Assembly (NCBI GenBank): GCA_014843695.1
Contig: CM026404.1
Span: forward strand, 57,833,931 to 57,897,930
Direction: 5' to 3'
Origin: Archivesica marissinica
Lineage: Eukaryota; Mollusca; Bivalvia; Venerida; Vesicomyidae
DNA length: 64,000 nt
In this document: positions 1,691 through 64,000 of the stretch, in pieces
How the letters are laid out: every line of letters starts with the position of its first letter
Numbering within the stretch: the stretch's first letter is position 1
Translations under genes and position numbers: made by a program
Notes under the pieces: model-generated
What the model saw: only the letters and a program-made list of their open reading frames with translations
What the model was told of the DNA's origin: nothing
The model's database searches: none

Positions 1691-3211
1691 TATACTGAGT
1701 CAAAAAAGAAACGATACCTGGTGTTTATGTGTCTATAATTTCAACATTTATTAAGAAAATTCTTTGAAAATTCATAAGATGATAGTCCAACATGTTTGAA
1801 AGAGGAGCACATAAAGCATAATGAGCCTCCGAAACTGTCTGCTGCGTGATGACGTAATTCGTCGGACAGGGGTCTAATGGAGTTTTCACACAGACGTCAA
1901 TACCGAGTATGGGCACCATTTGCGTCTCTCACTGCAATGCACCGCCGTCGCATCGAACGGAAGAGTGTCTGAATCTCTTGCTGGTCAATATTTGTCCACT
2001 CCTGACGCAAAACATCCCTCAGTTGGTTTAACGTTACCGGCTGACGTCGTCTGACGCGGCGGTCTAACGTATCCCACAAATGTTCTATGGGTGACAAGTC
2101 TGGTGACAAAGCAGGCCACGGCAGGGTTTCAATATTGTTCTGCTCCAATAATGTGGTGGAAATCCGAGCAGTATGACACCTGGCGTTGTCCTGTTGGAAC
2201 AGTGTGACGTTTCTGTTGGCGTTAAAGAACGGCACAACAACTGGCGCAAGGATCTCATCACAGTACCGCTGGGCGTTTAGGTTCCCGTCCACCACTAACA
2301 GTTCAGTGCGACTGCCGAAGGTGATACCGCCCCACGCCATAACGCTTCCGCCCCCGAACAGATCGACCTGACGTACACATGCGTCGGCGTAACGTTCACC
2401 GCGTATGCGATATACCCGCTCTCTGCCATCCGCTCGACTCAAACAGAACCGCGATTCATCGCTAAACATCACCGAATTCCACTGTAACCGAGTCCAGCGA
2501 GCACGTTCCGTCGTCCATTCCCGCCGTACGTCACGGTGACGTCGTGTCAGGATGGGTCCAACGTATGGCCGATAGGCACGAATGCCACGTTCACCGAGCC
2601 GGTTCCTGACTGTTTGTGCACTGATGCGATTGTTGGTCATCCCAGGAGTAACGGCAGCTGTGTGCGTAGCAGGTAGGAACCGGTCACGTAAATGTGACGT
2701 CCGAATGTGACGGTCCTGTTCACGCGTCGTCACACGTGGTCGACCAGATCTTGGACGGTCGTCCACCGATCCATGTGTTCGATAACGTCGAAGTAGACGT
2801 GTTATCGTGATCCGCGTAACCCCGAGTCGATTTGCGACGTCACGCTGACGTAAACCGCCGTCAATCATGCCAATGGCACGCATTCTCTGATTGCGGTTTA
2901 GCCTAGGCATTTTGTTAGAGGTAACAATGGGTATGTAAGGTGTTTTTCCTCGATGATAATGCAATACCAGTACAATAAACCGGTTTTCCGATTTGTACAT
3001 GTGTAGGACGTTGTCTTTGTTGAGGAGCACGTGCAAATCGGAAATTTGGCGTTCCAGGATTATCGGGTGTTTATTTACCTGTGTTTATGGTTGGCTGACA
3101 TTGCAATAAGATACCCGGTACTGATAGGTAATAATATATTAAACCTTTCTATGGTTTTATCCGTTTTACGTCATTTTTCGTTTGGTATCGTTTCTTTTTT
3201 GACTCAGTATA
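1691..3211 (-). mobile_element. Tc1-like transposon, apparently complete
   Basis: The element proper is 1693-3209, flanked by TA on each side (1691-1692 and 3210-3211), the target duplication typical of Tc1/mariner. The outer 28 bases (1691-1718 against 3184-3211) are a perfect inverted repeat that includes the TA. It carries one uninterrupted transposase gene on the minus strand. Identical ends and an open frame suggest recent insertion. Confidence 0.93.
1897..2910 (-). CDS. Tc1-family transposase (DD34E)
   Basis: Cut-and-paste transposase, 337 residues, the usual Tc1 length. The start chosen is the Met of MPRLNRNQ, because the 42 in-frame residues upstream look like untranslated leader. 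The N-terminal half has two helix-turn-helix regions (QRDVANRLGVTRITITRLLR near residues 23-42, then a second around SAQTVRNRLGERGI), which bind the inverted repeats. The catalytic triad is visible: D in FSDESRF, D in QQDNARCH, and E in SPDLSPIEHLWD 35 residues later, i.e. 34 residues between the last two (DD34E). No stop or frameshift interrupts it. It lies within perfect TIRs, so the element may still be autonomous. Activity is inference. Confidence 0.93.
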   Translation of the reverse strand: MPRLNRNQRMRAIGMIDGGLRQRDVANRLGVTRITITRLLRRYRTHGSVDDRPRSGRPRVTTREQDRHIRTSHLRDRFLPATHTAAVTPGMTNNRISAQTVRNRLGERGIRAYRPYVGPILTRRHRDVRREWTTERARWTRLQWNSVMFSDESRFCLSRADGRERVYRIRGERYADACVRQVDLFGGGSVMAWGGITFGSRTELLVVDGNLNAQRYCDEILAPVVVPFFNANRNVTLFQQDNARCHTARISTTLLEQNNIETLPWPALSPDLSPIEHLWDTLDRRVRRRQPVTLNQLRDVLRQEWTNIDQQEIQTLFRSMRRRCIAVRDANGAHTRY

Positions 3212-6376: not shown

Positions 6377-6485
6377 GATGAGTCAGAACAGACTGATGAA
6401 GCAGTTGAAGATTTGACCGACGAACCGAGGAACACTAACACAGAAGACAACCCTTCTACAGTACTTACGGAAGAAAAACTACAAG
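6377..6485 (+). CDS. Gene A exon: acidic extension and TEEKLQ
   Basis: 109 bp, acceptor TTAATTAG, donor G|GTTTGT, phase 0 to phase 1. Only this frame is open. It ends CAA G, which joins AA TAT of the next exon to give Q-E-Y. Confidence 0.82.
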
Positions 6486-9400
6486 GTTTGTAAATGATGT
6501 AGTAGATGACGTCACTCGCGGATTGAGCCCGAACGTGTTTATGTTGACTCTATGTTAGAGTGTATTGTCCGAGAATCTTTAGTGTACGGCAATGAAATTA
6601 GCTGTAACAGTAAAGCATGAAATTGTCTTTTTCTAATAAATTTCCATCTTTGATTGAGGATGCACCAAGTCACTCACTCACTCACTCACTCACTCACTCA
6701 CTCACTCACTCACTCACTCACTCACTCACTCACTCACTCACTCACTCACTCACTCACTCACTCACTCACTCACTCACTCACTCACTCACTCACTCATCCA
6801 CTCACTCAAACTCACTCACTCACTCACTCACTCACACTCACTCACTCACTCACTCACTCACTCACTCACTCACTCACTCACACTCACTCACTCACTCACT
6901 CACTCACTCACTCACTCATCCACCCATCCCCACTCATCACTCACTCACTCACTCACTCACTCATCCACTCATCACTCACTCACTCACTCACACTCACTCA
7001 CTCACTCACTCACTCACTCACTCAACCCACTCACCCACCACTCACTCACTCACTCACTCACTCTCTCACTCACTCACTCACTCAACCACCCATCCACCCA
7101 CCCACCCATCTTTGATTGAAGATCGTACAATAAATATACATAAACATGTTATATATCTATAGTTTATTAAATGTATTTCACAGAATATACGGATGCGTTT
7201 GCCTTGTTTGACAAAGATTGCAACAATTCTATTACCGTAGCGGAACTCAAAACCGTGCTTATGTCAGTCGGAAAGGACCCGACGGACAAAGAAGTTGCGG
7301 CGATGATAGCTGCTGTTGACCAGAATGGTAGTATTCGTACATTTATTGTTGTGTGTGTTTTACAACGATTGCGAAAAGAGTGTTAACAATTTATATTAAT
7401 CACTCTGGTTGGCTGGGATGAAAGCGTATTAGTCGTCATTCAAACAGCAGTATCTGATGAAAACCAACATGTCCGATCTGGCGACCTCCGTACATCGAAC
7501 CAGGTTGCATTGCTGAGAGCGAACGTGCTAACTTTTGACTCAGTACTCATGCTATAACATCCGATCATACGTTAGAAACTAAACTAGTAGTTGCTAAATC
7601 CGACGTTTACAATCATAGTTGTTATATATTCATATATTCACAATAATGACTGAAAGCGACTTTATTGTTTTACATGTGTGTTTTACGTTTATTTATCGGC
7701 GCTACCGGTTGCCCATATGTGCGACGCCTCACGAAGAGATTAGTTATTTTAGATTGTTGGAGGATAGTGCATGATACAGACAGAGACCCATTCCAGAATC
7801 TCCTCTGGTTCTTTTACGTGCAGGGTGTAAAGCACCGACACGAGACCTCGGTTTAACGTCCCATCTGAAAGACTGTTAATTTTATTAGGGTCAGACGGGG
7901 GGTCGAACCTGCGATCCCTGGATTACCAGTCCAGCGTGTTACCACTGGACTACATATCCGTCGTATATTCTTAAATACCATCAACACATATTACTATATA
8001 TTATGCAGTCGTTGTCTTCAATGCAGGTAATGGTCAGATTGAATTTGAAGAGTTTATACAGTTGATGGAGTGTGAAGAGAAGTCTTTTAAAACGGAAGAT
8101 CTCATGCGTGAGGCATTCGAAGTACTTGATCCTAATGGGAATGGTTATATAACCATGTCAACACTGAAACGTGTTGCAACAGATATGGGATGTGAATTTA
8201 CTGACGAGGAAATCGACGATATGATAAATGAGGCTGATTCGAACGGCGACGGGAAAGTGAAATATGAAGGTAAGTGCACAAGATAGTTAATAATATTTTA
8301 TTGCATTTTTTTCATAGAATACATTACATATATACATACAATACTAAGAACAAATCAGAGATTAATATGTAATTATATGATTGCAGTGTACGATACATTT
8401 GTTTTATCAAGGGGAAAAAAGCAAATGGGTTGGGCTACAAGTTATAACAACTGGCAGAATATGTTCCAGAAGAAGAGAATAAATAAATCCGATTCTAAAG
8501 CGGACTGAATAGTAGTGAAATGTTGTGCCTCCAAGATGAAATGGATGCGGTGTCAACTTGGTTACCGGGAGGTTGTGAGTTAGAACCCCATCAGAACAAA
8601 GCTGGTCGTGTTGTCCGTAGACACTGCCTCTTTAGCTTTGTGCATGATATTGCACATCTTCTGTCCGCAGTCACAACATGTGTATTAAGTGGAAGTCGTG
8701 GTAGCGCAGTGGATACGCGTTTGCTTCAGGTGCGAACGGTCCGGAGATCGAGCCTCACTGGAGCCGTTACGATTGTGCCCTTAGGCAAGGCATTTAAATC
8801 CCACGTTGCCTCTTCTCTCTCACCCATGGTGATGGATTCCACAAGGAATGAGATATCGATAGCGAATAAACTAACGTAAGAACTTATTTCGCAATCGAGA
8901 TCATTTCAATTTGTACAAACTAATAGTGAAATAAGTAAATCGAATGAATGAATAAGGAATGTGTATGATCCGCAACCAGACAAACTAATGATAAGTGGAT
9001 GTTACATGCACCAGATGAAGTGTGGCACGTATAATGGAAGAGGTAGATCCATCATTTGTACGGAAAAGCGAAACATTGTGGAATTAGTAACTGGACCAAT
9101 GCATTAACGCAATGAATGACGAAAGAAGTATATGACGAATTGGACGGAAAAGTGAAATAAATATGTGAGTGGAATAATCAGATGACTTAAGAAATATTGA
9201 GAGCTCAGGCCGATCCAGAAATCGACGGAAACTAATGTGAATGCAGGGAAGATGTAATAGATCGATCCAATAGGTAAGAGGTATTGTGTAACGCTAAGTG
9301 TTCAGCGTGATGAGACGAGGATTATGAACGAGATTAATATACAATTGTGATGGAAAGTAAACACTATGATGACGATATGATGAAAGTAGTATATAGGAGA

Positions 9401-9690
9401 TAATGTTGAGTACAGAGATATACGAAGTCAACAGACGATGCTCGAATTCAAACTTATTGGCGAATTGGGCATATTGTATGACTTTTTAAGCATTAGATTA
9501 TAGCTAAGCTCACTTACAATGAAACTAAGTTGGAATGAATGTGAGTAAGAATGAAACTGAATTAGAATGTTGACCAAAACATGTCGATACGTTCTGCGGC
9601 ATGACAACTCATAAAGCAGTCATTGTTTTAAAACAACATTTTCATGTTTTTATTTTGTTTTCAGAATTTCTACGTATAACGATGTGGTGA
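6377..9690 (+). CDS. Calmodulin-like gene A (four EF-hands, acidic N-terminus)
   Basis: Supported coding exons 6377-6485, 7184-7327, 8027-8269 and 9665-9690 join in phase to give 173 codons plus stop. With an initiator Met from an upstream exon the protein is 174 residues, against 149 for calmodulin. Residues 2-29 are an acidic, low-complexity extension. TEEKLQEYTDAFALFD then matches the calmodulin start. EF loops are at about 47-58 (DKDCNNSITVAE), 83-94 (DQNGNGQIEFEE), 120-131 (DPNGNGYITMST) and 156-167 (DSNGDGKVKYEE). Loop 3 lacks the position-12 acid and loop 1 lacks the position-6 Gly, so they may bind calcium weakly. The C-terminus EEFLRITMW parallels calmodulin EEFVQMMT. Expected role is a cytosolic calcium sensor; targets cannot be read. 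Genes B and C have the same exon plan. Confidence 0.87.
6669..7096. repeat. (CTCA)n microsatellite in gene A intron
   Basis: About 430 bp of CTCA tetranucleotide with scattered CATC and CCAC variants. Long ORFs reading THSL repeats across it are by-products. It ends about 90 bp before the first EF-hand exon. Confidence 0.97.
7184..7327 (+). CDS. Gene A exon: EF-hand 1 and start of EF-hand 2
   Basis: 144 bp, acceptor TATTTCACAG, donor AATG|GTAGTA, phase 1 in and out. Its length and boundaries equal those of the corresponding exons of genes B (49761-49904) and C (63833-63976). Confidence 0.9.
7352..7545 (-). mobile_element. SINE family 3, diverged copy
   Basis: Minus copy with the tail (TACAACGATTGCGAAA, TATATTAATCACTC) and a degraded tRNA-like head. 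It lies in the intron of gene A. Confidence 0.65.
7673..7962 (-). mobile_element. SINE family 1 copy
   Basis: Nearly full-length minus copy, from the TTTACGTTTATTTATCG tail to the tRNA-Thr-like head ending ATATCCGTC. Intronic. Confidence 0.88.
8027..8269 (+). CDS. Gene A exon: EF-hands 2 to 4
   Basis: 243 bp, acceptor TTCAATGCAG, donor GAAG|GTAAGT, phase 1 in and out. It encodes NGQIEFEEFIQLMECEEKS, loop 3 and loop 4. The final split codon G|AA supplies the Glu at position 12 of loop 4. Confidence 0.92.
8691..8935 (+). mobile_element. SINE family 2 copy
   Basis: Head GTCGTGGTAGCGCAGTGG, B box, CCCTTAGGCAAGGCATTTAA core and tail. In the last intron of gene A. Confidence 0.88.
8936..9664. other. 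Last intron of gene A, right part
   Basis: Purine-rich, AT-rich sequence with no exon or repeat recognised, ending in a TTTTATTTTGTTTTCAG acceptor. Confidence 0.5.
9665..9690 (+). CDS. Gene A terminal exon
   Basis: 26 bp: completes the Glu codon, then Phe-Leu-Arg-Ile-Thr-Met-Trp and TGA. The acceptor is TTTTGTTTTCAG. The equivalent exon in gene B is also 26 bp and also starts G|AA TT. A possible polyadenylation signal AATAAA is at 9792-9797. Confidence 0.82.
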
Positions 9691-14900: not shown

Positions 14901-17900
14901 GGATGCTTTAAAGAAAAGGTGGCCACCTTGGACCGTCCTCTACCGATAAGAGCTAAAAGTCCCATATGATGTAAGCTTTGGTGCGACTTTAAACCATCAA
15001 ACACTATAAAGCATACAGAAGCTGTAGCTCTGCATAAGAAACGAATACTGCTGTCAAAAATGTTAAATTATACTTTCCAGGAAACTCGTCTATTAGATCC
15101 AAACTATTATCTAAGAAAGTCAAGAGGTTCTATCGAGTACAGAGAACAAATCCGATTTGTATCCGGCCAATTACGAGCTATTAGCATATACTTCAAAAAT
15201 GAGCTGACAGAACTCCGTGACAAAAAGTCCAAAACAACAACCGAGACCTCAACAGTACAACCTATGCCATCATGTGTTCCTGGTCCAGCAGAGATTGCAG
15301 CACAATGCTACGCAGAAAGCGTTGAACGGGAAAAGCAGTCTTATGAAACAAAACTGTATTATGCTCTATGGAGAACGGCTTTCACAAGAGCTATAGAACG
15401 GCTACGAGAAAACAAGGTACAGTAATTACACCTTCTTACAAAATCACGATTCTGATTGGCTGATTCCCAATGAATTGCGTAAACTGATTCTATTGTCATA
15501 TAATATTCATAGTGGACTACTTTTTGTATGGTGTGACGAATCAAAGACAACTTGTTTTTGTAATTTGTAAAATAGTAGTTGTAATTATAACAATTAAATG
15601 TTTGACTATCTTATTAGCGCAGTGGTTAGCGCGCTCGCTTCTCGCAAATGCAACCCGGGTTCGATCCTCGAACCGGGAAGTATGTGAACTGGTACGATGG
15701 TTACCAGATCGGACAGGTGGGTTTTCTCCGGGTACTCCGGTTTCCTCCCACATGAATTAATACATACGTATACGCTTTCCTCCGCGCCAACGAGAGTGAT
15801 TAATATAATGTGTTAGACACAATCGTTGTAAAATAAATTAAGTTTAAAATTAATTAAATGTTCTTTATCTGCATTTCATCGGGTATGAAATGTCAGTTCT
15901 TACGCCTTAATTTTCATTACACCGAAATGTTAACTAAGCTCGAAATAACGCCGTGTTTGAACTCATTTTAGAAATGACCAGTAACAAATAGGTTACTGTA
16001 TCAAATATGTTCCGTTGTACTTTATTATGATGATTGATATACATAGTAATGTATACATTGCAAACGGTAGCATGTACCGTGCGTAAGCCGCTCAGGTTAG
16101 TGGCCGGTTACATTAGCATATAACGGATGCCGTATCATGTATCGGACGGGTGCAGTATAAATATATTAGACGGATGCCGTATCATGTATCGGACGGGTGC
16201 AGTATACATATATTAGACGGATGCCGTATCATGTATCGGACGGGTGCAGTATAACTATATTAGACGGATGCCGTATCATGTATCGGACTGGTGCAGTATA
16301 AATATATTAGATGGATGCCGTTTCATATATATTTAACACGCTGGACTGGTAATCCAGGGATCGCACGTTCGATCCCCAGTCTGACCATAATGAAATTAAC
16401 AGTCGTTCAGATGGGACTTTAAACCGAAGTCTCGTGTCGGTGCTTTACACCGTGCACGTAAAAGAACCAGAGGAGACTCTGGAATGGGTCTCTGTCTGTA
16501 TCATTGTACTATTCTCCAAAGATCTTAAATGACTAATCTCTTCAGGAGACGTCTCTCATATGAGCAATCGGTAGCGACGATAAATAAACGTAAAACACAC
16601 ACATATCATATATCAGACGACGGGCTATGCCTTACGCTGGCAATTATATCGTATACATACATGACAAAATTAAGTCACTGCCAAAATAAAGACGTAGACT
16701 CCTCATTCATTCGAAAGTAACTTGTTTCGCATCGATAAATGAAACCGCGTCGTCGTATTAAAGTATTTAGCTTCGAAATTACGAATACAGAAGGCAGGTT
16801 AATATATAACTAGCAAATGGTCGTACATAAGGGCACCAGTTAATCTGTACTTTCACGTTTTAAAAGTTTATTTAACGTCACTACCGGTTGCCCAAATGAG
16901 CGACGGGAAAATTACCAAGCATCACCTTTCCTGGGCAGGCTCTAGAGGTTAATGGTTAATCCGTACTTGGTGCACAAACCTCCGTAAGAAACTGCCAATG
17001 TTTTCATATAAAGAGACACGGTGGCCATCAGTGATGGTAGGTTACAGTGATGTACAGTCAGCGATCTTAGCCACGCGACCACGGAGGCGAGACCCGACCG
17101 TCAGAGGTAGCACATATGTATTGACATTGTAGATGGTATGCTCTAATTACCTCCACATGGTTTGTTTGTGTGTTATGGATGACAGCGTGGTGGGGTATGT
17201 GCTATACAGAGTGCCCGCTGTCCGATTAGTGCAGTGGTTAGCGCGCTGGCTTCTCACCAATGCAACCCGGATTCGATCCTCGAACCGGGAAGTATGTGAA
17301 ATGGTACAGTGATCGCCAGATCGGACAGGTGGGTTTTCTCAGGGTACACATTTACGCTAACACCCGCGCCAACAAGAGCGATTAATATAAGTTGTTAGAA
17401 CTTGCTTCGCAATCGTTGTAAAATAAATAAAGTTAAAAAAAGAGTGCCCACTAGTTATTAATGTAATTAAAGTAGTTACTATGCATACTATGCTTTCCAT
17501 GAAGGTTGTTGCTTAAGCACAATGTTTGTCTGGTCAGTATTAATCACACTTATCCTCTCTTTCAGCGAATGAAAACGAATTGTCTCACTACCCCTGATAT
17601 GTCAACTGAACGTACTGATAGAGGCGGAAATATAACTGAACGCACTGATATAGGCAGAAATATAACTGAACGCACTGATGGAGGCGGAAATATAACTGAA
17701 CGTACTGATAGAGGCGGAAATATAACTGAACGTACTGATAGAGGCGGAAATATAACTGAACGTACTGATGGAGGCGGAAATATAACTGAACGTACTGATA
17801 GAGGCGGAAATATAACTGAACGCACTGATGGAGGCGGAAATATAACTGAACGCACTGATAGAGGCGGAAATATAACTGAACGTACTGATAGAGGTGGAAA

Positions 17901-19491
17901 TATAACTGAACGCACTGATAGAGGCGGAAATATAACTGAACGCACTGATAGAGGCGGAAATATAACTGAACGCACTGATAGAGGCGGAAATATAACTGAA
18001 CGTACTGATAGAGGCGGAAATATAACTGAACGCACTGATAGAGGCGGAAATATAACTGAACGCACTGATAGAGGCGGAAATATAACTGAACGCACTGAAA
18101 GAGGCGGAAATATAACTGAACGCACTGATAGAGGCGGAAATATAACTGAACGCACTGATAGAGGCGGAAATATAACTGAACGCATTGATAGAGGCGGAAA
18201 TATAACTGAATGTACTGAAAGAGGCGGAAATATAACTGAACGCGCTGAAAGAGATGGACATATAACTGAAAGCATTGAAAGAGGTGAAAATATAACAGAA
18301 CGCACTGATAGAGGCGGACATATCACTGAACGTACTGAAAGAGGCGGACATATAACCGAACGTGTTGAAAGAGGCGGAAATATAACTGAACGCACTGAAA
18401 GAGGCGGAAATATAACTGAACGCACTGAAAGAGGCGGAAATATAACTGAACGTACTGAAAGAGGCGGACATATAACTGAACGCACTGAAAGAGGCGGAAA
18501 TATAACTGAACGCACTGAAAGAGACGGAAATATAAAACAAAAAGAAACATGCCCAAACCGGCGGAAAGTTCGCTTAACAATCATATCTCCTACCCTAAAA
18601 GCTACACAAAAAGTAAGTATTGACGTGACTATTTAGTATGTTGCCGGTTTCACAAAACAGCTAAGACATGTAGTAAGTTGGTTGTATCCGTGGATTTGAT
18701 TGGCTCTTAAAATAGCCGTCCAATAGCAGATACTGTTATTTCTAGTGTACGACAAATTTTAACTATAACTGGAACTAATCAATTTATATTGACGGATATG
18801 TAGTCTAGTGGTAACACTCTGGACTGGTAATCCAGGGATCACAGGTTCGATACCCCGTCTGACCATAATAAAATTAACCGTCTTTCAGATGGGGGTTTAA
18901 ACCGAGGTACTGTACACCGTGCACGTAAAAGAACCAGAGGATACTCTGAAATGGGTGTCCGTCTGTATCATTGCACTATCCTCCAAAAATCTAAAATTAC
19001 TAATCTCTTCAGGAGGCGTCGCTCATATGGGCAACCAGTAGCGATGATAAATAAACGTAAAACACACACATATTGACATCAAAGTTATATTTAAGCAGCA
19101 TTGGTTGTCTGACAAGCTAATCTTAATGCTTTCAAAGGGGAACTAACCATTGTATTGTCTATGCATAATCACCTAATATTAGCCTCCCTTTCAACACTAT
19201 TGCCTTCATTTGCCTTTTATCATTTCATTATTATCTGACAGTATCATTTCATACTGAAAGCATATGTTACTAAGAAACACTATGCACACTGTATTTCAGA
19301 ATTTGGTTAAAAAATCAACTTCAAAAAATGTGGCAAATAGAGGATCATACACCCAGAGGTTTAAGAAGATGAATAATCTAGAAGATAAGGATGATATGGT
19401 GTTGGAGAAACAACCCGAACAAGTTAATAGAAAACCTGCTCCTAAACGACGTCAATCTAGCTTACTGAAAAGAGGATATGTTATAACTTGA
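11870..19491 (+). CDS. Unrecognised gene with a 31-copy 10-residue repeat
   Basis: Seven exons (11870-11949, 12029-12103, 13339-13606, 14125-14256, 15081-15416, 17566-18612, 19300-19491) join in phase to about 709 residues. The N-terminus, MGTIEDIKRETIERREADH, is charged and helix-prone. The middle is hydrophilic and includes a YYALWRTAFTRAIERLRENK segment. The large sixth exon encodes 31 copies of ERTDRGGNIT (with TD/TE and occasional other changes), followed by a basic, Lys/Arg-rich C-terminus. I see no signal peptide or membrane segment. I do not recognise the family. The exon 3 donor is uncertain (13606 or 13615; the frame stays open to TGA at 13628). Other alternatives are two adjacent genes, or skipping of the phase-compatible segment at 14905. 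Confidence 0.72.
12029..12103 (+). CDS. Repeat-protein gene, exon 2
   Basis: 75 bp, acceptor CATTATAG, donor GTTAG|GTTGCC, phase 2 in and out. It encodes LMDTVDPVWRLPTFLPDTM and a short remainder. Confidence 0.68.
12193..12414 (-). mobile_element. SINE family 2 copy
   Basis: Minus copy with tail, part of the core and head. Intronic in the repeat-protein gene. Confidence 0.85.
12517..12665 (+). mobile_element. SINE family 4-like fragment
   Basis: tRNA-like start (TTGACCGAGTGATTAAGGTC) that resembles the head at 53870, followed by diverged sequence ending GGTCTATGCACCCAG. Confidence 0.45.
12733..12950 (+). mobile_element. SINE family 4 copy
   Basis: The tRNA-like head has GTCCAGTGGTAGAGCG and GGGTTCGATAC boxes. 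The body contains TTAGTACTGGTTAATCGCT and AGGAAAACATGTCTAGGT. A close relative is at 25993. Confidence 0.75.
13339..13606 (+). CDS. Repeat-protein gene, exon 3
   Basis: Acceptor CATCCTTACAG, phase 2 in (AG|C gives Ser). The acidic start GIPDETDDVEEVLEDNFEIP is followed by a more basic part. The end is uncertain: weak donors follow 13606 and 13615, or the exon runs to TGA at 13628-13630 as an alternative terminus. Confidence 0.68.
13631..14124. other. Intron with an inverted repeat
   Basis: The sequence near 13650-13670 (CTCACACGAAAAAGAAAGTG) recurs in inverted form at 13852-13873 (CACTTTCTTTTTCGTGTGAG), with a second matching pair inside, so 13650-13873 could be a MITE of about 220 bp. Nothing else seen. 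Confidence 0.5.
14125..14256 (+). CDS. Repeat-protein gene, exon 4
   Basis: 132 bp, acceptor TTATTATTTTCAG, donor GTG|GTATAT, phase 0 in and out. Only one frame is open. It encodes a polar, unrecognised sequence (SDRHCGIRNRLKPEPETVLE at its start). Confidence 0.55.
14257..15080. other. Intron, with one possible skipped exon
   Basis: AT-rich, with no repeat recognised. A possible alternative exon starts near 14905 (see findings). Confidence 0.4.
15081..15416 (+). CDS. Repeat-protein gene, exon 5
   Basis: 336 bp, acceptor ATACTTTCCAG, donor AACAAG|GTACAG, phase 0 in and out. It encodes 112 residues, with a Ser/Thr-rich linker in the middle and two helix-prone blocks around it. Confidence 0.78.
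15606..15846 (+). mobile_element. SINE family 3 copy
   Basis: tRNA-like head (TTAGCGCAGTGGTTAGCGCG, GGGTTCGATCC), core TTTCTCCGGGTACTCCGG with TTTCCTCCCAC, and the 3' tail shared with family 2. Confidence 0.88.
16124..16335. repeat. 47-bp tandem repeat, about 4.5 copies
   Basis: Units contain CGGATGCCGTATCATGTATC and GGACGGGTGCAGTATA. The last partial unit abuts a 5'-truncated SINE. Confidence 0.88.
16333..16605 (+). mobile_element. SINE family 1, 5'-truncated
   Basis: Begins after the A box (TTAACACGCTGGACTGG), then full core and tail. Confidence 0.85.
16862..17105 (-). mobile_element. SINE fragments: family 1 tail and family 4
   Basis: 16862-16905 is a minus fragment of the family 1 tail (CTACCGGTTGCCCA). 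16906-17105 is a minus family 4 copy with the complement of TACTGGTTAACCGCT-like sequence and a head at the right (CGCGACCACGGAGG). Confidence 0.65.
17217..17436 (+). mobile_element. SINE family 3 copy
   Basis: Head GTCCGATTAGTGCAGTGG; the TTTCCTCCCAC part of the core is shortened; tail ATTAATATAAGTTGTTAG is present. Confidence 0.85.
17566..18612 (+). CDS. Repeat-protein gene, exon 6 (31 tandem repeats)
   Basis: 1047 bp, acceptor CTCTCTTTCAG, donor ACAAAAA|GTAAGT, phase 0 in and out. Units of 30 bp at 17608-18537 encode ERTDRGGNIT. Early units are almost all TD; the last third shifts to TE and has more changes (AERDGHIT, IERGENIT). Every unit keeps length and frame, which supports translation. 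The long minus-strand ORFs over this exon are shadows of the repeat. Confidence 0.8.
18794..19069 (+). mobile_element. SINE family 1 copy
   Basis: Full-length with 8-bp target duplications ATATTGAC (18786-18793 and 19070-19077). In the last intron of the repeat-protein gene. Confidence 0.88.
19300..19491 (+). CDS. Repeat-protein gene, terminal exon
   Basis: 192 bp, acceptor CTGTATTTCAG, phase 0, ends TGA. It encodes a basic tail (KPAPKRRQSSLLKRG). The stop codon overlaps the first unit of the following tandem repeat. Confidence 0.75.
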   Translation, partial: NLVKKSTSKNVANRGSYTQRFKKMNNLEDKDDMVLEKQPEQVNRKPAPKRRQSSLLKRGYVIT

Positions 19492-47700: not shown

Positions 47701-50700
47701 AATATATTGTTTGTTTAACAATATAGTTGATATTCAGTGTCTCACAAATCAATATTTTACAAGTAGTAACATTCATTTAGTTATTTAATATTGTTTCTTT
47801 TACTTGTTGCTAAATACATATATTTAGCTAAATTGACAAGTTTGCTCTTTGGTGTTGAATTCATGAGTGTTCTAGGCGTATTAATGGTTGGCCATGAACA
47901 ATAATATCTAGGTAAATATATATTATATTTCTTATATCATTATAATAAGGACAAACTAATAAGAAATGATATTCTGATTCTACTTGATGCATATTACATA
48001 ATGCTGCTAAGTGTTTGTCGTTGCTTAACTGGACTCACCAATACATGTACATTCAGATGTAATCTCAGTATCGTCAAGATAAACCATTCCTCCATGGAGG
48101 ATGTACAAGCGACGATTGTCATAAAGTACTGGCGATATCAGTGAAAGAGTCTAGTCCAGCCGTAACTACTATGGAAGTCAGCCGGATGGATAATAAGTAG
48201 TAGATGACTCTGATAGTAGTTCAATTTCAATATTTTAAATTCAGAGAACATTGTTGGCGACCTGATGTTCACAGTCGGTAGACTGTTCAACCTCGAAAGA
48301 GCATGTGTTCGAGTCCGGGGCTGGCTGCACATTTTGTCTGTAGTAGAAGATACTACATTCAGTGTGCTTTATAACTGTATAGCCTCAGTCAATTTTACAA
48401 CACTTCCCTATCTTGACGATATATTATAGAAATATGGCCATGCAAGTGAATACATATCTATATTCAATTACTACAGTGCGTATTAGTTAATAAACAACCG
48501 ATTCACTAGTGTACGTGCCTCAACGAATGACTCTCAGTATCAGTTTTATAACACAAGCAATCTTACAATACTTTGGCGATATAGCATGGACGTATGCTAC
48601 GGGAACATTGCGTGTAAGAGGACAGAACATTATTCGAAACCAAGTTTTGCATCAGCCCAAAATTTCAACCAATGTGATGTAAATCCGACTGATAATTTGT
48701 TAGGTTCATTTGCTTTGTAAGGAATAACATAGAACTGCGCACTTTGTGCATATGTCATTTTATTATTAAATGACGTACATGTAACAACATATTACACTAA
48801 AATATTCTACTGACAATATTGAAAACATTTTCATAGCATATTCAAAGCATGACAAAGCAAAGGTTGGCACTTTTCCGCCACAGCAAATGGTTCACAGCCA
48901 AATGGTTCACATTGATGTGTCAGCATTTTGCCAGACCACAAGAACATTATTCTTGACTAAGTTATCTCTTCCTGAACATCCGCGGAAGAATTCAATCTTA
49001 TTATGTAGCATGTTGAGGTTCGGACTTGTAGAGATGATAGAACTACCAAAGACAACCTTTTGCTATCTCAGATGATGGTGGCGATTGAGCATATTTTACC
49101 ATCGCCTCATGTGGGCGAGCGTACTAAGATGTTTAGTTAACACTCATATATTATAAGCTAAGGTGATTAAGTTGTGTGCGTTAATAATGCGATTTGAATG
49201 TCCAGCTCGGCCATAGATTAGGCTATCTCACACCAGGCCGTGAGGTTATAAAGCTTACTCAGAATCAACCAATCAAATCACTTGGGCTTCAGTTTGAGAT
49301 CTGAGAAAAGCGTTACGCACGCACGCACACACACGTGCGCACACACACGCGCGCACACACACACAGTGTTACTGGCAGTATGAGTCAGGCATGGAGGTTA
49401 TAGCACCTTTTTCAAATCTGAATCTCAACACTCAAGCTTCTCATTGGTTCAGCAGAGTGCAAATCTCAGAATAAACCAATCGTCTAACTTGAGCTTCAGA
49501 TCTGAGAACAGTGTTATAACCTCGGAGCCTGGGCCTGAGGTTATAAATCTTTTCTCAGATCTCAAACTCGAGCTCAAGAAATGTGATTAGACGAGTCTGA
49601 GATTTTCTGTTGGCTCAACCAATCAGAAGCTTGAAACTGCGTTTGATATTGTAGAACCGTTTTATAACCTCCAGGCCTGGTCTCATTGAAGCTGAAAACA
49701 TGTGTCACCAGCAGGAACTTTTGGACATAACAATGAACCATTAGATGAATACATTTTCAGAATTACAAAAGGCATTCGATATATGTGATATTGACGACGA
49801 GGGACATATCACTGCTCCGGAGCTGGAATATGCTCTCGGAATAGTCAAGATAAACGCAACACGCAATGATGTAGATAACATTCTACAACAGTTAGGACAA
49901 CCCGGTAAGACAATTATTATATTTGTATGCGCTATTATATGAAGGGTTGCTATTAAATCTATTTAAATATAAGCTTATGTCACACTGCTATGCTTTTAAT
50001 ATACGGAGAAACACGTTTTCTGGAACACGATGGAATGCTGTACGAATAACCATCTTTTTGAAATTCCAGAAAAAATCACATTTGGGCAGTTCAGAGACAT
50101 TGTGATAGAAATGAGCACAAAAGATCAAACGGAAGAATTGAAAGACGCGTTCCGAACGTTTGACCATGACAAAAATGGGCATATCACAAAAGATACATTA
50201 CGAGCAATTGTAGAACCAATTCTGGGTAAGGACTTCAGTGAAGAACAACTCAACAAAATAATCAACGATGCCGATCTCGACGGAGATGGAGTCATTGACA
50301 TTGATGGTACTAATCAAGTTTGTTTGTTTTGGGGTTAAGGTGGTACCACATTGATGGTACTAATCAAGTTTGTTTGTTTTGGGGTTAAGGTGGTACCACA
50401 TTGATGGTACTAATCAAGTTTGTTTGTTTTGGGGTTAAGGTGGTACCACATTGATGGTACTAATCAAGTTTGTTTGTTTTGGGGTTAAGGTGGTACCACA
50501 TTGATGGTACTAATCAAGTTTGTTTGTTTTGGGGTTAAGGTGGTACCACATTGATGGTACTAATCAAGTTTGTTTGTTTTGGGGTTAAGGTGGTACCACA
50601 TTGATGGTACTAATCAAGTTTGTTTGTTTTGGGGTTAAGGTGGTACCATCAGGTTAGGTCATACTTTCCATCTATAATTGGCGGAGGTAGACCCCAGGTA

Positions 50701-51248
50701 TCCCATTGGCCAGTATTCCAGGCACGAACAGGCATCCGGGTAGAACCGCCGACTTCCCAAAAGCTAACTGGATAGCTACATCACCTGAATTAATTCGACA
50801 CCCTAATGACATTCTAACCTAAAGCGATGAGGGGTCAAGTGGATTGAAGTCAGCTATCGTAACAACTCGGTCACGGAGGTCCCTTTGGATATATAATGTC
50901 TTGTAAATGTATATAATGTATTAGGCTGATGTCTGTGTATATAAGAATAAGGATAATTTTATCTTATTGAGTACATTTGGGATGTCACGTTTAATCATAC
51001 CGTCTCCGTGGCCTAGTTGTTAAGATGTCCGCCTACGGAGCGGGAGATCGATGGTTCGAATCTCGTCAGTGTTCGTTCTGACATGGCCGGTTTGTGAGCC
51101 GCCATCTAGTTAAATTATTAAATAATGGTTACCGATTGCCTACAAACCTGTATCCGGGCGTACATGGATAGGAATAGGGAAGTACTGGTGTTCATAAATA
51201 GAATAGAAATATAACTTTACAGAATTCGAGACGTTCATGATGGGGTAA
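38746..51248 (+). CDS. Calmodulin-like gene B (terminal exon in tandem copies)
   Basis: Exons 38746-38769, 38887-38905, 49761-49904, 50070-50306 and 51223-51248 join in phase to 149 residues, exactly calmodulin's length. The N-terminus MALSAYLSDKAFEAELQKAF differs from calmodulin. EF loops: 24-35 DIDDEGHITAPE (usable); loop 2 near 59-69 is vestigial (LGQPEKITFGQ, no ligand set, two residues shorter); 94-105 DHDKNGHITKDT lacks the position-12 acid; 131-142 DLDGDGVIDIDE is canonical, with its last Glu made by the final splice junction. So one or two strong calcium sites remain. Intron 2 is 10.9 kb. The exon 4 donor and the whole terminal exon are embedded in minisatellites. Likely a diverged calcium-binding regulator; partners unknown. 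Confidence 0.87.
38887..38905 (+). CDS. Gene B exon 2 (19-bp microexon)
   Basis: Acceptor CTGTATTCCAG, donor GCAG|GTAAGT, phase 0 to 1, encoding DKAFEA. It joins in phase with 49761. Confidence 0.68.
38937..40640. repeat. 20-bp satellite, about 84 copies
   Basis: Unit TTATTACTACACGTATACCG with CCGTT/CCAGT/GCCGTT variants, interrupted once at 39048-39090 by an (ATA)n tract and a short dispersed fragment. It lies in intron 2 of gene B; long ORFs of HVYRYYYT type across it are artefacts. Confidence 0.97.
40641..41100. other. Gene B intron 2, dispersed fragment
   Basis: Near 40765-40820 is a segment whose complement (TATGTTGAGGGCCT) recurs at 47028, probably a retroposon 3' end. Nothing else seen. 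Confidence 0.4.
41101..41207. mobile_element. MITE, TACAGTCAAACCTG family, short form
   Basis: 107 bp with perfect 15-bp TIRs in a TATATA-rich site. Confidence 0.9.
41208..41977. other. Gene B intron 2
   Basis: A sequence containing CACGGTGTTGCGTTTTTAAA with GCGTGTCAGTATA occurs twice (41253 and 41748), and a SINE family 1 tail fragment is at 41808-41858. No exon seen. Confidence 0.5.
42484..42570. repeat. Tandem duplication of about 45 bp
   Basis: Two copies of ATGAATATAGTGAAACAC followed by AAACATAACTAAAATATTA. Confidence 0.85.
42674..43597 (-). CDS. Gag-like protein of YR-retroelement type, C-terminus broken
   Basis: 307 residues. The N-terminus is basic with a duplicated MPPRKR motif (likely nuclear signal) and an Ala run; the middle is low complexity. 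The C-terminal third (about 180-290) has the pattern W..AFHIF..IYTDRHP, ALMKY, FYDRQFRLL that I associate with gag-like proteins of DIRS/Ngaro retroelements of marine invertebrates. It ends in a zinc-knuckle start (HCFDYNNGSC) that is cut off. The next reading frame just downstream continues with a C..H..C..H-like spacing, so a frameshift near 42700 probably truncated it. GHPSSA is repeated three times near residue 197. No reverse transcriptase or recombinase lies nearby. Family assignment is from memory. Confidence 0.62.
   Translation of the reverse strand: MPPRKRKQTDRAAAAAAEPTRSSMPPRKRQKAAAEPSTTCSAGELADDTIQNIISSVIPAVTQGVLQVLKDMKVLPSDDVQPEQMISVQAQEDQGTSSTMLSMPTPGMNTSGSSGTFSRPLFLGVEEKLKAKIVSDQFIELDLLITKGECQYQMAESSGGVLAFKQVVKSAHTIKTLDQWFSAFHIFTSIYTDRHPSSAGHPSSAGHPSSAPALMKYCDTVHKLARQSGDHAVLFYDRQFRLLKEARASLISYADVDSELYTQALAKGLGRANLNQSFLGARPQQKKHCFDYNNGSCTGVIAKRDMH
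43781..44130. repeat. 51-bp tandem repeat, about 7 copies
   Basis: Units contain CATCTGACTAGCAATAATAT and TATGCCCAATTCAATCTTG. It lies between the two cassette genes. 51 is a multiple of three, so a long + strand ORF crosses it, but that ORF is not supported. Confidence 0.93.
44336..44911 (-). CDS. SGNH/GDSL-hydrolase-like protein, nucleophile Ser missing
   Basis: 191 residues, which is about one SGNH domain. Block I is LFIGDLN near residues 4-10, where the family has GDS: the nucleophilic Ser is Leu here (TTG, one base from TCG). Block III is present as VGGNDID near residue 70 and block V as KPDGVHFSDIG near residue 167, giving the Asp-x-x-His pair. The fold is therefore likely kept while esterase activity is doubtful. 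SGNH domains occur in Ngaro-type YR retroelements and in ORF1 of some LINEs. Next to a gag-like gene the first is more likely. The order (SGNH, then gag-like) with no RT between is unusual. Confidence 0.72.
   Translation of the reverse strand: MTVLFIGDLNIGRFEQYLGKSDPFDVESKVSIDFYGISGGCITKSNHVALFGERIAKCNPCCVVMSVGGNDIDAQGSDSSNAELTALRIVTIANLWLQRYKLHNIFVCQLTPRKCTRNVTSDCYNILLKEANMAIKRELVEHEHIHYWNLKGMKNSDCDLLKPDGVHFSDIGLEKLRRNVRGIILKCLRQL
45445..45660. repeat. 11-bp tandem repeat, about 19 copies
   Basis: Unit GATTACTTTGT with TTTGTG/TTTGCG variation, just right of the TIR element. Confidence 0.94.
45890..46118 (-). mobile_element. SINE family 2 copy
   Basis: Minus, complete from tail to head. Confidence 0.9.
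46119..47250. other. Gene B intron 2, AT-rich
   Basis: TAAAACATGGTTT occurs at 46533 and 46696 and inverted at 46774, so 46530-46790 may be a MITE. A retroposon-like end with AATAAAGTCTTTATTATT is at 47080-47112. No exon seen. Confidence 0.4.
47251..47484 (-). mobile_element. SINE family 2 copy
   Basis: Minus, nearly complete. Confidence 0.9.
47485..49234. other. Gene B intron 2, no clear feature
   Basis: 47585-47640 has CAAGTCAAGTCAAGTCAAAG, a probable 3' tail of a minus-strand LINE fragment. 48255-48325 has a weak tRNA-like B box (TGTTCGAGTCC). No exon supported. Confidence 0.35.
49242..49671. mobile_element. Cluster of three GAGGTTATAA MITE copies
   Basis: Copies at about 49242-49313, 49394-49523 and 49537-49671, each starting GAGGTTATA and, in two, ending TTATAACCTC, with AACCAATCAGAAGCTT-type interiors. 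A CA/CG-rich microsatellite is at 49315-49365. The cluster ends about 90 bp before the EF-hand exon. Confidence 0.65.
49761..49904 (+). CDS. Gene B exon 3: EF-hand 1
   Basis: 144 bp, acceptor ACATTTTCAG, donor CCCG|GTAAGA, phase 1 in and out; same length and borders as in genes A and C. Confidence 0.92.
50070..50306 (+). CDS. Gene B exon 4: EF-hands 2 (vestigial) to 4
   Basis: 237 bp (six fewer than in gene A), acceptor TTGAAATTCCAG, donor GATG|GTACTA, phase 1. The donor lies in the first unit of a tandem array. Confidence 0.9.
50301..50648. repeat. 50-bp array repeating the exon 4 splice donor, 7 copies
   Basis: The unit starts with the last six exon bases and the donor (TTGATG|GTACTAATC) and goes on through TTTGGGGTTAAGGTGGTACC to ACA. 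All seven copies are essentially identical; only the last is cut short. Use of a later donor would add an in-frame TAA. Confidence 0.95.
50999..51199 (+). mobile_element. SINE family 5 (tRNA-Arg-like)
   Basis: Head TCCGTGGCCTAGTTGTTAAG, anticodon-like loop CTACGGA (ACG, Arg), B box GGTTCGAATCT. Body to TACTGGTGTTCATAAATAG. It lies just before the terminal-exon array. Confidence 0.82.
51223..51248 (+). CDS. Gene B terminal exon, first copy
   Basis: Acceptor ATAACTTTACAG. AA completes the Glu at position 12 of EF loop 4, then Phe-Glu-Thr-Phe-Met-Met-Gly and TAA. The other copies read Val instead of Glu, giving EFVTFMMG, which is closer to calmodulin EFVQMMT. Confidence 0.85.
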
Positions 51249-51945
51249 TGAACAATTACATTAGTGAATGTCTCGTACATGTATATCTTTACAGAATTCG
51301 TGACGTTCATGATGGGGTAATGAACAATTACATTAGTGAATGTCTCGTACATGTATATCTTTACAGAATTCGTGACGTTCATGATGGGGTAATGAACAAT
51401 TACATTAGTGAATGTTTCGTATATATTTACAGAATTCGTGACGTTCATGATGGGGTAATGAACAGTTACATTAGTGAATGTCTCGTATATATTTACAGAA
51501 TTCGTGACGTTCATGATGGGGTAATGAACAGTTACATCAGTGAATGTCTCGTATATATTTACAGAATTCGTGACGTTCATGATGGGGTAATGAACAGTTA
51601 CATCAGTGAATGTCTCGTATATATTTACATAATTCGTGACGTTCATGATGGGGTAATGAGCAATTACATTAGTGAATGTCTCGTATATATTTACAGAATT
51701 CGTGACGTTCATGATGGGGTAATGAACAGTTACATGAGTGAATGTCTCGTATATATTTACAGAATTCGTGACGTTCATGATGGGGTAATGAACAATTACA
51801 TCAGTGAATGTCTCGTATATATTTACAGAATTCGTGACGTTCATGATGGGGTAATGAACAGTTACATCAGTGAATGTCTCGTATATATTTACAGAATTCG
51901 TGACGTTCATGATGGGGTAATGAACAGTTACATCAGTGAATGAAT
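51223..51945 (+). repeat. Terminal-exon minisatellite, 11 copies (72/66 bp)
   Basis: Exon copies start at 51223, 51295, 51367, 51433, 51499, 51565, 51631, 51697, 51763, 51829 and 51895. Each has a TTTACAG acceptor, the 26-bp coding exon with TAA, and about 40 bp of following sequence. The copy at 51631 has TTTACAT, so it has no AG. Spacing is 72, 72, then 66. AATAAA signals follow at 51943 and 52048. Confidence 0.95.
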
Positions 51946-52047
51946 AAACCAGCATCGAAAGAGTTTGAACTTCAATTTTATGTTGGAACTGACTATGTGT
52001 ACATTGACATTGAACTTGCACACGTGTATGTTACATTGTTTTCCATT

Positions 52048-52053
52048 AATAAA
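52048..52053 (+). terminator. Possible polyadenylation signal, gene B
   Basis: AATAAA about 100 bp after the exon array; another at 51943-51948 in the last unit. Confidence 0.4.
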
Positions 52054-52162
52054 GCATGCAATCGATTAATAATCGAATTACATAGTTATGTGAATCGTTT
52101 GCATGTAACATAATAATACTTTATTTTCCTCCAACTGTGAAGAGTATGACATATTTACACAA

Positions 52163-52344
52163 TACAGTCAAACCTGTGTTAGTGGTCACCTCCATTAAGC
52201 AGCCAACCTGTATTAAGCAGCCAGTTTCAAGATTCCCTATATGTTGTTTTACTATACATTTGACCTCTATTAAGCAGCCACCTGTGCTAAGCAGCCACTT
52301 TCTCTGACTCCCTTGGCTGGCTGCTTAAGACAGGTTTGACTGTA
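52163..52344. mobile_element. MITE, TACAGTCAAACCTG family
   Basis: Full form with perfect 15-bp TIRs and TA flanks. Confidence 0.9.
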
Positions 52345-52701
52345 TACAGACATGTAAACAGCACAAATGTAAATCAAGCGTATGCACAAACACAATACAT
52401 ATCGTACAGCAGGCGAACATATGTGTAGGCCTACTCCACGAGCAACTAGGGACATTCCTTGGGTCCCTGTTCATACTGAGACATACCTGTACTGCTGCAT
52501 AGAGGCACCTAAACAGAGCCAGCCCTTTCGCCAGCAGACCCGGCGGTTTCCACAATCGTTGTGATTATTTTAAAAATTAGACAATAAATGATATATATTA
52601 AAATAATAGCTTTAGATGGTATAACTTGATAAGCAAGTACAGAGGTAGAGTATTGCAACTGTACTAAACTCATTAAACATTGACATACAACTGGATATTT
52701 C
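52345..52701. other. Intergenic, no feature
   Basis: No exon or repeat recognised. Confidence 0.35.
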
Positions 52702-52850
52702 TTAGTTTATACAAACTTATTTTAGCTCGATTGTGAAACAAGTTCTTACAGCTTTTATTAATCACTCGAGAGAGAGAGAGAGAGAGACCTCATTCCTGAT
52801 GGAATCCACCGTCACGAGGGAGAGAGAAGAGGCAATGCGGAATTTAAATA
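52702..52850 (-). mobile_element. SINE family 2, truncated
   Basis: Minus tail and part of the core, with a GA microsatellite insertion at 52769-52786. Confidence 0.82.
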
Positions 52851-53101
52851 GTTCTTGGCTATTTCTAGAACTAGGTATCATATATAAATTGTACAAACTA
52901 CGACACTCATTTTGATACCAACCTATCTCCGTCAATGTACTTCATAAGACTTGTGTAGAAATAATGCTGAACGAAGTCTAGCCGGTATGAAATTAACTAA
53001 TAAACTTTGAAAACATTGCGAGTTCGTAACATTTGCGAGATGGAACATGGCATATACAAACCCTTAGAATAAAATATGTTGGCAACTACCTTACCTTTGT
53101 G

Positions 53102-53349
53102 GCTGTCCGATTAGCGCAGTGGTTAGCGCGCTCGCCCCTCACCAATGCAACCCGGGTTCGATCCTCGGACCGGCATGTATGTCAGATGGTACGGTGGTCG
53201 CCAGGTCGGACAGGTGGGTTTTCTCCGGGTACTCCAGTTTCCTCCCACACGAATGACCACATTTAAGCTTTCATCCGCGCCAACGAGAGTGATTAATATA
53301 AGTTGTTAAAACTTACTTCGAAATCGTTGTAAAATAAATAAAGTTTAAG
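53102..53349 (+). mobile_element. SINE family 3, reference copy
   Basis: Complete: head GTCCGATTAGCGCAGTGG, GGGTTCGATCC B box, TTTTCTCCGGGTACTCCAG with TTTCCTCCCAC core, and GAGAGTGATTAATATAAG tail. The core box resembles the conserved domain of the broadly distributed MetaSINE group; from memory, not checked. Confidence 0.88.
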
Positions 53350-53452
53350 CTACTATGTATACACAATTACAACTCAGATCAAAGGTTTCAATGTAGCTTT
53401 CTGAGTTGAATCAGTACTAATATTTAATACACAACAACATTATATGGCCACC

Positions 53453-53690
53453 AGGTTATAAAACTTTTCTCCAATCTCAAAACTCAGTCTCAAGCGTCTG
53501 ATTGGTTCAGCTAACAGTAACACTCAGAATCAACCAATCAGATCATTTGAGCTTGAGTTGATCTGTGAAACGTTTTATGATAATGGGCAATGGGGGTTCA
53601 GCTGACAGTAACACTCAGAATCAACCAATCAGATCATTTGAGCTTGAGTTGATCTGTGAAACATTTTATAATATTGGACAATGGTCGTGA
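53453..53690. mobile_element. GAGGTTATAA MITE copy with internal duplication
   Basis: Starts AGGTTATAAAACTTTT. The segment GTTCAGCTAACAGTAACACT to ATGATAATGGG is followed by a second copy at 53596-53690. Confidence 0.65.
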
Positions 53691-53869
53691 ATAATTACAT
53701 ATTCCAAAACAGACTCCTTAGTGTATGAACTATGAATGCTTGCCGAAACGAAATGCAAAAAGAACATATAATTCTAGGATTAGGACGACGATAATCACAA
53801 CACTATGTTCTATGGTAGGCTATCTTTCAGCGTAGGAAAGAGAGCAACAAGGACGTAACTACTGTGTCC

Positions 53870-54130
53870 GCCTCCGTGGTCGAGTGGTTAAGGTCGCTGA
53901 CTTGTATACCACTGTAACCTATCATCACTGCTGATCACGGGTTCAAGCCCCGCTCAGACCGTGTCTCATTTTATGAAAAAGTTGGCAGTTTCTTACGGAG
54001 GTTGGTGCACCCAAGTACTGGTTAACCGCTGGAGCCTGCCCAGGAAAGGTGTTGTTAGGTAAACTGTCCGCCGGCGAAATAGCCCAAAATGGTGCTGATG
54101 CAGGCGTAAAGCCCGAACTATAACATAACA
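53870..54130 (+). mobile_element. SINE family 4 variant (long head)
   Basis: Head CTCCGTGGTCGAGTGGTTAA with GGGTTCAAGCCCCGC, body AAGTACTGGTTAACCGCTGG. A minus copy is at 16906-17105. Confidence 0.72.
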
Positions 54131-55905: not shown

Positions 55906-63976
<8,071 letters not shown>

Positions 63977-64000
63977 GTTCGTATATATATGTCATGTATG

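Follow-up and report, generated by a model that had tools for sequence, protein, structure and literature searches.

How can a gene tolerate having the splice sites of one of its introns copied many times over, and what becomes of the copies? The question is raised by a calmodulin-like gene predicted on the forward strand of a 64-kb stretch of DNA (hereafter the window), whose last acceptor and terminal coding exon lie in an 11-copy tandem array. The sequence-only reading of this locus had presented the array as a series of interchangeable terminal exons and had not reported any twin of it; to this we add a second array, on the donor side of the same intron (50298-50648). The splice boundaries used throughout are those predicted from the reading frame and the EF-hand match. 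On this basis the locus probably carries a pair of minisatellites, similar to the so-called mirages of amphioxus, in which the predicted donor and the predicted acceptor of the last intron are both repeated, with splicing from the first donor to an upstream acceptor, the protein finished normally and the other copies passing into the 3' untranslated region (UTR). The most likely origin would be an ordinary minisatellite expansion that was caught across splice sites and tolerated.

The acceptor side was delimited with Tandem Repeats Finder (TRF), a unit table and an alignment, and comprises the following features:
51216-51942, forward strand: acceptor-side array of 11 units, each made of TTTACAG (TTTACAT in copy 7), a 26-nt terminal coding exon ending in TAA and a 3' stretch (TRF, unit table, alignment).
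51223..51248, forward strand: terminal exon copy 1, the Glu variant (AA TTC GAG ACG TTC ATG ATG GGG TAA), with an A-rich acceptor tract (unit table, in-silico splicing).
51295..51320, forward strand: terminal exon copy 2, the Val form (unit table, in-silico splicing).
51624..51630, forward strand: acceptor lost in copy 7, TTTACAT (unit table).
51943..51948, forward strand: AATAAA poly(A)-type signal immediately 3' of the array (sequence).

TRF gives the array a period of 66, 10.8 copies and 96% matches. The starts of successive units are 72, 72 and then eight times 66 bp apart, and the final unit of 55 bp diverges into the AATAAA. In every unit the order is TTTACAG, AATTCGTGACGTTCATGATGGGGTAA and a non-coding stretch. 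Ten of the 11 units retain the AG of the acceptor, the exception being copy 7 with CAT at 51624, and ten share one and the same 26-nt exon sequence, from which copy 1 departs by GAG (Glu) in place of GTG (Val). When splicing was carried out in silico from 50306 to all 11 copies of the exon in turn (with copy 7 included despite its lost AG), frame, stop and length were the same and the sequences differed only in this Glu or Val; nearly any copy of the last exon would thus be likely to complete the same protein. The array itself, the content of its units, the single lost acceptor, the common phase with the preceding exon and the Glu/Val difference had all been claimed from the letters alone, and these claims hold. 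It had also been remarked that the unit lengths are multiples of three, which is true of the 72- and 66-bp spacing and has no coding effect, because translation in the exon frame meets a stop within each unit. Depending on the acceptor copy, the 3' UTR up to the end of the first AATAAA ranges from 700 down to 28 nt, and further AATAAA motifs occur at 52048 and 52583. The residue that corresponds to the Glu/Val position is Val in both calmodulin chains for which alignments are shown and Leu in a sister gene of the window; for this reason Glu, as in copy 1, is probably the derived state.

Upstream of the arrays, two exons were predicted:
49745..49904, forward strand: predicted coding exon with EF-hand 1 (translation, tblastn, GT donor at 49905).
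50070..50306, forward strand: predicted penultimate coding exon, which covers EF-hands 2-4 and stops after the first base of the codon for the position-12 Glu of EF-hand 4 (sequence, in-silico splicing, tblastn; donor 50306/50307).

The predicted exons of the window, once joined, encode a protein of 140 residues (P0001), which matches the EF-hand family PF13499 at 8.3e-22. Against sequences of solved structures, 447 matches were obtained, and the best 60 of the 447 include a calmodulin fusion at 4.5e-31 and calmodulin chains from 1.7e-24. P0001 has EF-hand pairs with calmodulin-like sequence, and inspection of its translation finds the canonical acidic pattern in loops 1 and 4 only. A true calmodulin has four canonical Ca-binding loops, and because of these two P0001 is, as judged from its translation, calmodulin-like only. 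A protein search with P0001 retained 16 matches from 26 candidates, 13 of the 16 plant-named, with the best from Stylosanthes at 33% identity; no mollusc-named protein is among the 16. No Rfam family matched positions 48000-54000 at the gathering threshold.

The predicted last intron of this gene interrupts the codon of the position-12 Glu of EF-hand 4. Three calmodulin-like genes lie on one strand within the 64 kb, at 6464-9690, 49745-51945 and 56867-64000 (the coordinates of the two sisters are approximate), and the third, from about 56867, extends beyond the right end of the window. In the first sister gene, the predicted last intron (8270-9664) falls in the same codon and the terminal exon (9665-9690) is single and unrepeated, with 26 coding nt including the stop. 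Since this sister has a single 26-nt terminal exon, a short last coding piece probably came first, and the array was probably added to one of the genes afterwards. The view of the array as the terminal coding exon of a calmodulin-like gene fits this shared intron position, as well as the EF-hand and calmodulin matches. Abalone calmodulin genes are described as having five exons, with intron positions and phases identical among them (PMC6171432), and as far as the available text of that paper goes, the layout of the sister genes fits theirs. In genes 1 and 3, a long TCAC array (6670-7084) and a CACG/ACGCA array (63010-63792) stop about 100 and about 40 bp, respectively, before an exon that starts at the same calmodulin position.

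The donor side of the last intron is repeated as well:
50298-50648, forward strand: donor-side array of 7 units, each combining the final 9 bases of the exon with 41 bases of the intron from the GT donor onwards (TRF 50 x 7.0, 100%; seven GATG/GTACTAATC sites).

The seven GATG/GTACTAATC donors are spaced exactly 50 bp apart, all seven are intact and their units are 100% identical, the repeated boundary in each being ACATTGATG/GTACTAATC. The donor unit of 50 bp is not a multiple of three and contains one KpnI site, while EcoRI sites lie at 10 of the 11 acceptors of the other array. In silico, the use of any of the six later donors (2-7) leads to truncation at the stop after DIDGTNQVCLFWG, 18 to 268 nt upstream of the junction, and the Ca-binding Glu of EF-hand 4 is replaced. 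Extra donors are predicted to be harmful or silent and extra acceptors harmless, since donors 2-7 bring a stop and the loss of this Glu whereas every acceptor copy keeps the frame. Each donor unit (50304-50648) also holds TACTAAT, which we take to be a branch-point-like motif, right after the G of the GT donor, followed by a T-rich stretch and TTAAG/GTGG, so that the unit resembles a tiny intron. Neither the donor unit nor the acceptor unit was found elsewhere in the 64-kb window at E 1e-3 or better.

Taken together, these data suggest the following course of events. The arrays would have grown by slippage or unequal exchange, in a window that is rich in arrays of this sort. Splicing would join the first of the seven donors to an early acceptor, the later units would become 3' UTR, and the message would end after the AATAAA at 51943, 52048 or 52583, so that an extra copy on the acceptor side would only lengthen the 3' UTR. 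Such an expansion could be tolerated because the 66-bp unit holds everything that is still needed after the intron, namely the acceptor, the coding tail and the stop. Donors 2-7 are predicted to be used little, because with them a stop would enter the message and EF-hand 4 would lose its Ca-binding Glu. As for the acceptors, the count of pyrimidines per 20 nt is lowest in copy 1 (7), highest in copies 2 and 3 (13) and 11 in copies 4-11, and the region upstream of copy 1 contains a further element:
50999..51202, forward strand: dispersed-repeat copy that ends 13 bp upstream of the first TTTACAG (79% match over 205 columns to 11779-11583).

Other partial copies of this repeat lie at 4085-3974 and 3681-3584. 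As it ends only 13 bp before the first TTTACAG, the branch-point region of acceptor 1 is likely to be repeat-derived. Because of this origin and of the few pyrimidines of copy 1, we weakly predict that the use of copy 2 or 3 equals or exceeds that of copy 1.

A stronger proposal is that the copies form a working set of interchangeable terminal exons, in which several acceptors would be used in regulated proportions, yielding 3' UTRs graded by 66 or 72 nt and either Glu or Val at the residue that follows the EF motif. The 10 intact acceptors and 10 identical exons out of 11 are in line with it, as are the 3' UTR range from 700 to 28 nt and the two additional AATAAA motifs. However, one acceptor is lost, conservation of the exon does not significantly exceed that of the remaining unit sequence, and a young homogenised array without function would look alike, which makes such a set unlikely in our view. 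The relevant comparison of substitution between the 26-bp exon and the remainder, put forward in the sequence-only reading, revealed no significant difference: one of 26 exon columns is variable against 5 of 40 in the rest of the acceptor unit (Fisher p 0.39, the 6-bp length change not counted), and there is one state change in the 26 exon columns against 6 in the 36 others (p 0.13). Hence conservation of the exon stands as a description, with 10 of 11 copies identical, and not as a contrast with the other bases of the unit. As a candidate, selection on the exon was significant in neither test, and functional maintenance of the copies is unsupported by them. Three stretches were folded in search of a hairpin in the unit. 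Unit 5 outdid most of its shuffles (z -1.95; 6 of 200 were as good); neither the donor unit nor the sequence around copy 1 did so (z 0.62 and -0.08, respectively).

A bolder version makes the array a fail-safe, self-copying cassette, whose ten acceptor-exon-stop units would protect the end of the protein from the loss of any splice site, allow a transposon to land harmlessly at the edge of the intron, tune the 3' UTR in 66-nt steps and offer a Glu/Val switch at unit 1, with seven donors at the other end; we give it a similarly small chance. If several acceptors were used, the locus would show, as an experiment of nature, on what basis the spliceosome selects between ten nearly identical sites in a transcript, position being their main difference.

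Several observations weigh against the tolerated pair of mirage-like arrays, or against parts of it. The first concerns the acceptors, as a yTnAy branch-point motif is found 18-45 nt before the acceptor in copy 1 only (TTCAT, -29), contrary to the preference for copies 2 and 3, which for this reason is a weak prediction. The motif would suit the use of a single acceptor, either the first or the last one before the unique 3' UTR, with all the others inert and their intact sites left over from a recent expansion; the amphioxus mirages, which are said in the available text not to disturb regular splicing, point the same way. With acceptors that are nearly identical, though, so strict a choice would need position or flanking sequence to decide it, and we regard a single acceptor as possible but rather doubtful. 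It overlaps with the explanation that we favor, which leaves the number of used acceptors open.

The second observation is that a motif scan recognised no exon 2 of calmodulin type upstream of the P0001 gene, whereas a short exon 2 is recognisable in genes 1 and 3 (LTEEKLQ and LTDEQIQ, respectively). The gene may start differently from its sisters or may be degenerate. Two starts are possible for the EF-hand 1 exon, ATG 49745, which may be the start of the gene, or 49761 after a CAG acceptor-like site, which by sequence comparison is the register of the sister genes' exon. A missing exon 2 would be expected of a calmodulin-like pseudogene that is decaying and overrun by minisatellites, and a window rich in tandem arrays and mobile-element frames, together with an EF-hand 2 that looks degenerate in the translation, would agree with this. 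Yet the joined exons are open, the GT-AG sites canonical and the EF-hand scores strong, and decay appears improbable. Third, the complete identity of the seven donor units leaves room for an assembly error in the donor array. That both arrays were inflated by misassembly is nevertheless very improbable, given that both private and shared variants occur among the acceptor units (the first 55 columns include 5 variable ones, and there is the 6-bp length change), which simple miscopying would not create.

The fourth point touches the mode of growth, as the similarity of adjacent acceptor units does not significantly exceed that of distant ones (permutation p 0.14); growth by neighbour copying was tried as a candidate and is unsupported by the same permutation. 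The last point is chance. Tandem arrays with a period of at least 10 and a score of at least 100 cover 14.0% of the window, or 15.2% when 63011-63762 is included, a short-unit array for which TRF gives periods 13 and 18 too. With the two focal arrays omitted from the TRF-based map, a random 916-nt interval has both ends in arrays in 3.6% of placements and in two different arrays in 2.2%, while about six introns were in view when the coincidence was judged. Arrays at both ends of one intron are thus suggestive and not extreme in an array-rich region, and because 2.2% of placements suffice with some six introns in view, no preference of arrays for splice sites is demonstrated.

Within the intron, 50895-50914 matches the non-coding part of the 72-bp acceptor unit at 18 of 20 bases, a score reached by none of 500 shuffles and by two of the 206 windows of the same sequence that served as controls; these two overlap and represent one place. 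For the 66-bp unit, the best score in the intron was reached by 197 of 500 shuffles. The former match is a hint that an older, decayed part of the array may lie inside the intron.

Elsewhere in the window, a 31-copy array of a 30-bp unit (17503-18636) stays open across 377 codons, which spell a repeat of 10 residues (ERTDRGGNIT-like); its putative translation matches RDM3_C, a beta-solenoid model of Pfam, at 6.8e-13. On the reverse strand, 1897-3084 is a stop-to-stop frame of 395 codons; it contains a DDE_3 endonuclease domain as well as a helix-turn-helix of Tc3 type that scores below its cut-off, and is probably a transposase of Tc1/mariner type. A tRNA-Arg called by ARAGORN at 63200-63290 on the reverse strand, within the CACG low-complexity array, is almost surely a false match. 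A long interspersed nuclear element (LINE) at 58088-61886, one relative of which is annotated as jockey among the matches listed, is probably inactive because it is split across several reading frames. The closest of the matches listed for its frame 58088-59716 is an environmental contig at 95% identity. In total 182 related proteins were found, and among the best 120 of these, 23 are organism-named, the most similar one listed being from Batillaria attramentaria with 73% identity over 55% of the query. All 23 names are those of molluscs, which makes a molluscan host probable and perhaps a gastropod one, although an element acquired by transfer could give a false lead.

How new is such an arrangement? 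Minisatellite-like duplications of intron-exon boundaries, on the donor or the acceptor side, have been described in amphioxus globin genes under the name of mirages; AG or GT is kept in many units, and unit numbers differ between haplotypes (PMC3087553). RT-PCR (reverse-transcription PCR) indicated that regular splicing was apparently unaffected by them (PMC3087553). Other amphioxus examples are PGBD5, Adh and troponin C (TnC) (PMC3902484), and undisturbed splicing is stated for globin, Adh and TnC and suggested for PGBD5 in the available text (PMC3087553, PMC3902484). Both arrays of our locus have a minisatellite-like unit that spans a predicted exon-intron boundary. The host is probably a mollusc and not an amphioxus; this difference is taxonomic, is indirectly drawn from the LINE, and concerns common descent and not kind, so that the case is filed as mirage-like and is probably an example from outside amphioxus.

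Related phenomena differ further. In human paralogs within segmental duplications, new introns can arise from variable internal tandem repeats that lie at exon-intron boundaries (PMC2812944); this is likewise minisatellite expansion at such boundaries that alters splicing, but with units of 30 bp on average in four copies and, in the accessible text, with new introns or longer coding exons as the result and not repeated last exons. The earthworm metallothionein clone Lr6F14, an annelid gene with very short exons, has duplications of its fourth exon that are not represented in the transcript (PMC12783039); the part of the paper available describes no in-phase minisatellite there, unlike in our array. 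Prawn lectins with variable coding repeats use alternative acceptors, but their repeats are not described, in the text at hand, as carrying splice sites (PMC7536079). The sequence-only reading had found nothing alike described, which does not stand for boundary minisatellites or for exon duplications. It does stand for a unit that holds the entire remaining coding sequence with its stop and for arrays at both ends of one intron, for which no precedent was found among the matches listed from the open-licence literature. Likewise, no description of an array of identical or interchangeable terminal coding exons was recognised among these matches, in a literature from which subscription papers are mostly absent. 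Several acceptors compete for one donor in tandem acceptors of the NAGNAG type and in arrays of alternative exons such as that of Dscam. There the choice changes the protein, whereas with the acceptors of our locus, if they compete, the proteins would be alike in all but a single residue.

The closest relatives remain the amphioxus mirages, which share with both arrays the head-to-tail units across an exon-intron boundary, many but not all of which keep AG or GT; in the available text their units measure 10-72 bp in Adh3 and 60-160 bp in globin and PGBD5. The case would extend boundary minisatellites of this type from amphioxus to a probable mollusc and suggests a rule, that expansion across an acceptor would be harmless where the unit holds all of the remaining coding sequence, as in genes whose last coding exon is very short, calmodulins among them. 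Two features appear unusual, at the level of the predicted gene structure. Compared with the globin mirage as described, the acceptor unit contains the whole remaining coding sequence together with its stop, so that no copy need be obligatory; and, unlike in the amphioxus genes in the portions available, both ends of one intron are amplified, in a host that is probably a mollusc.

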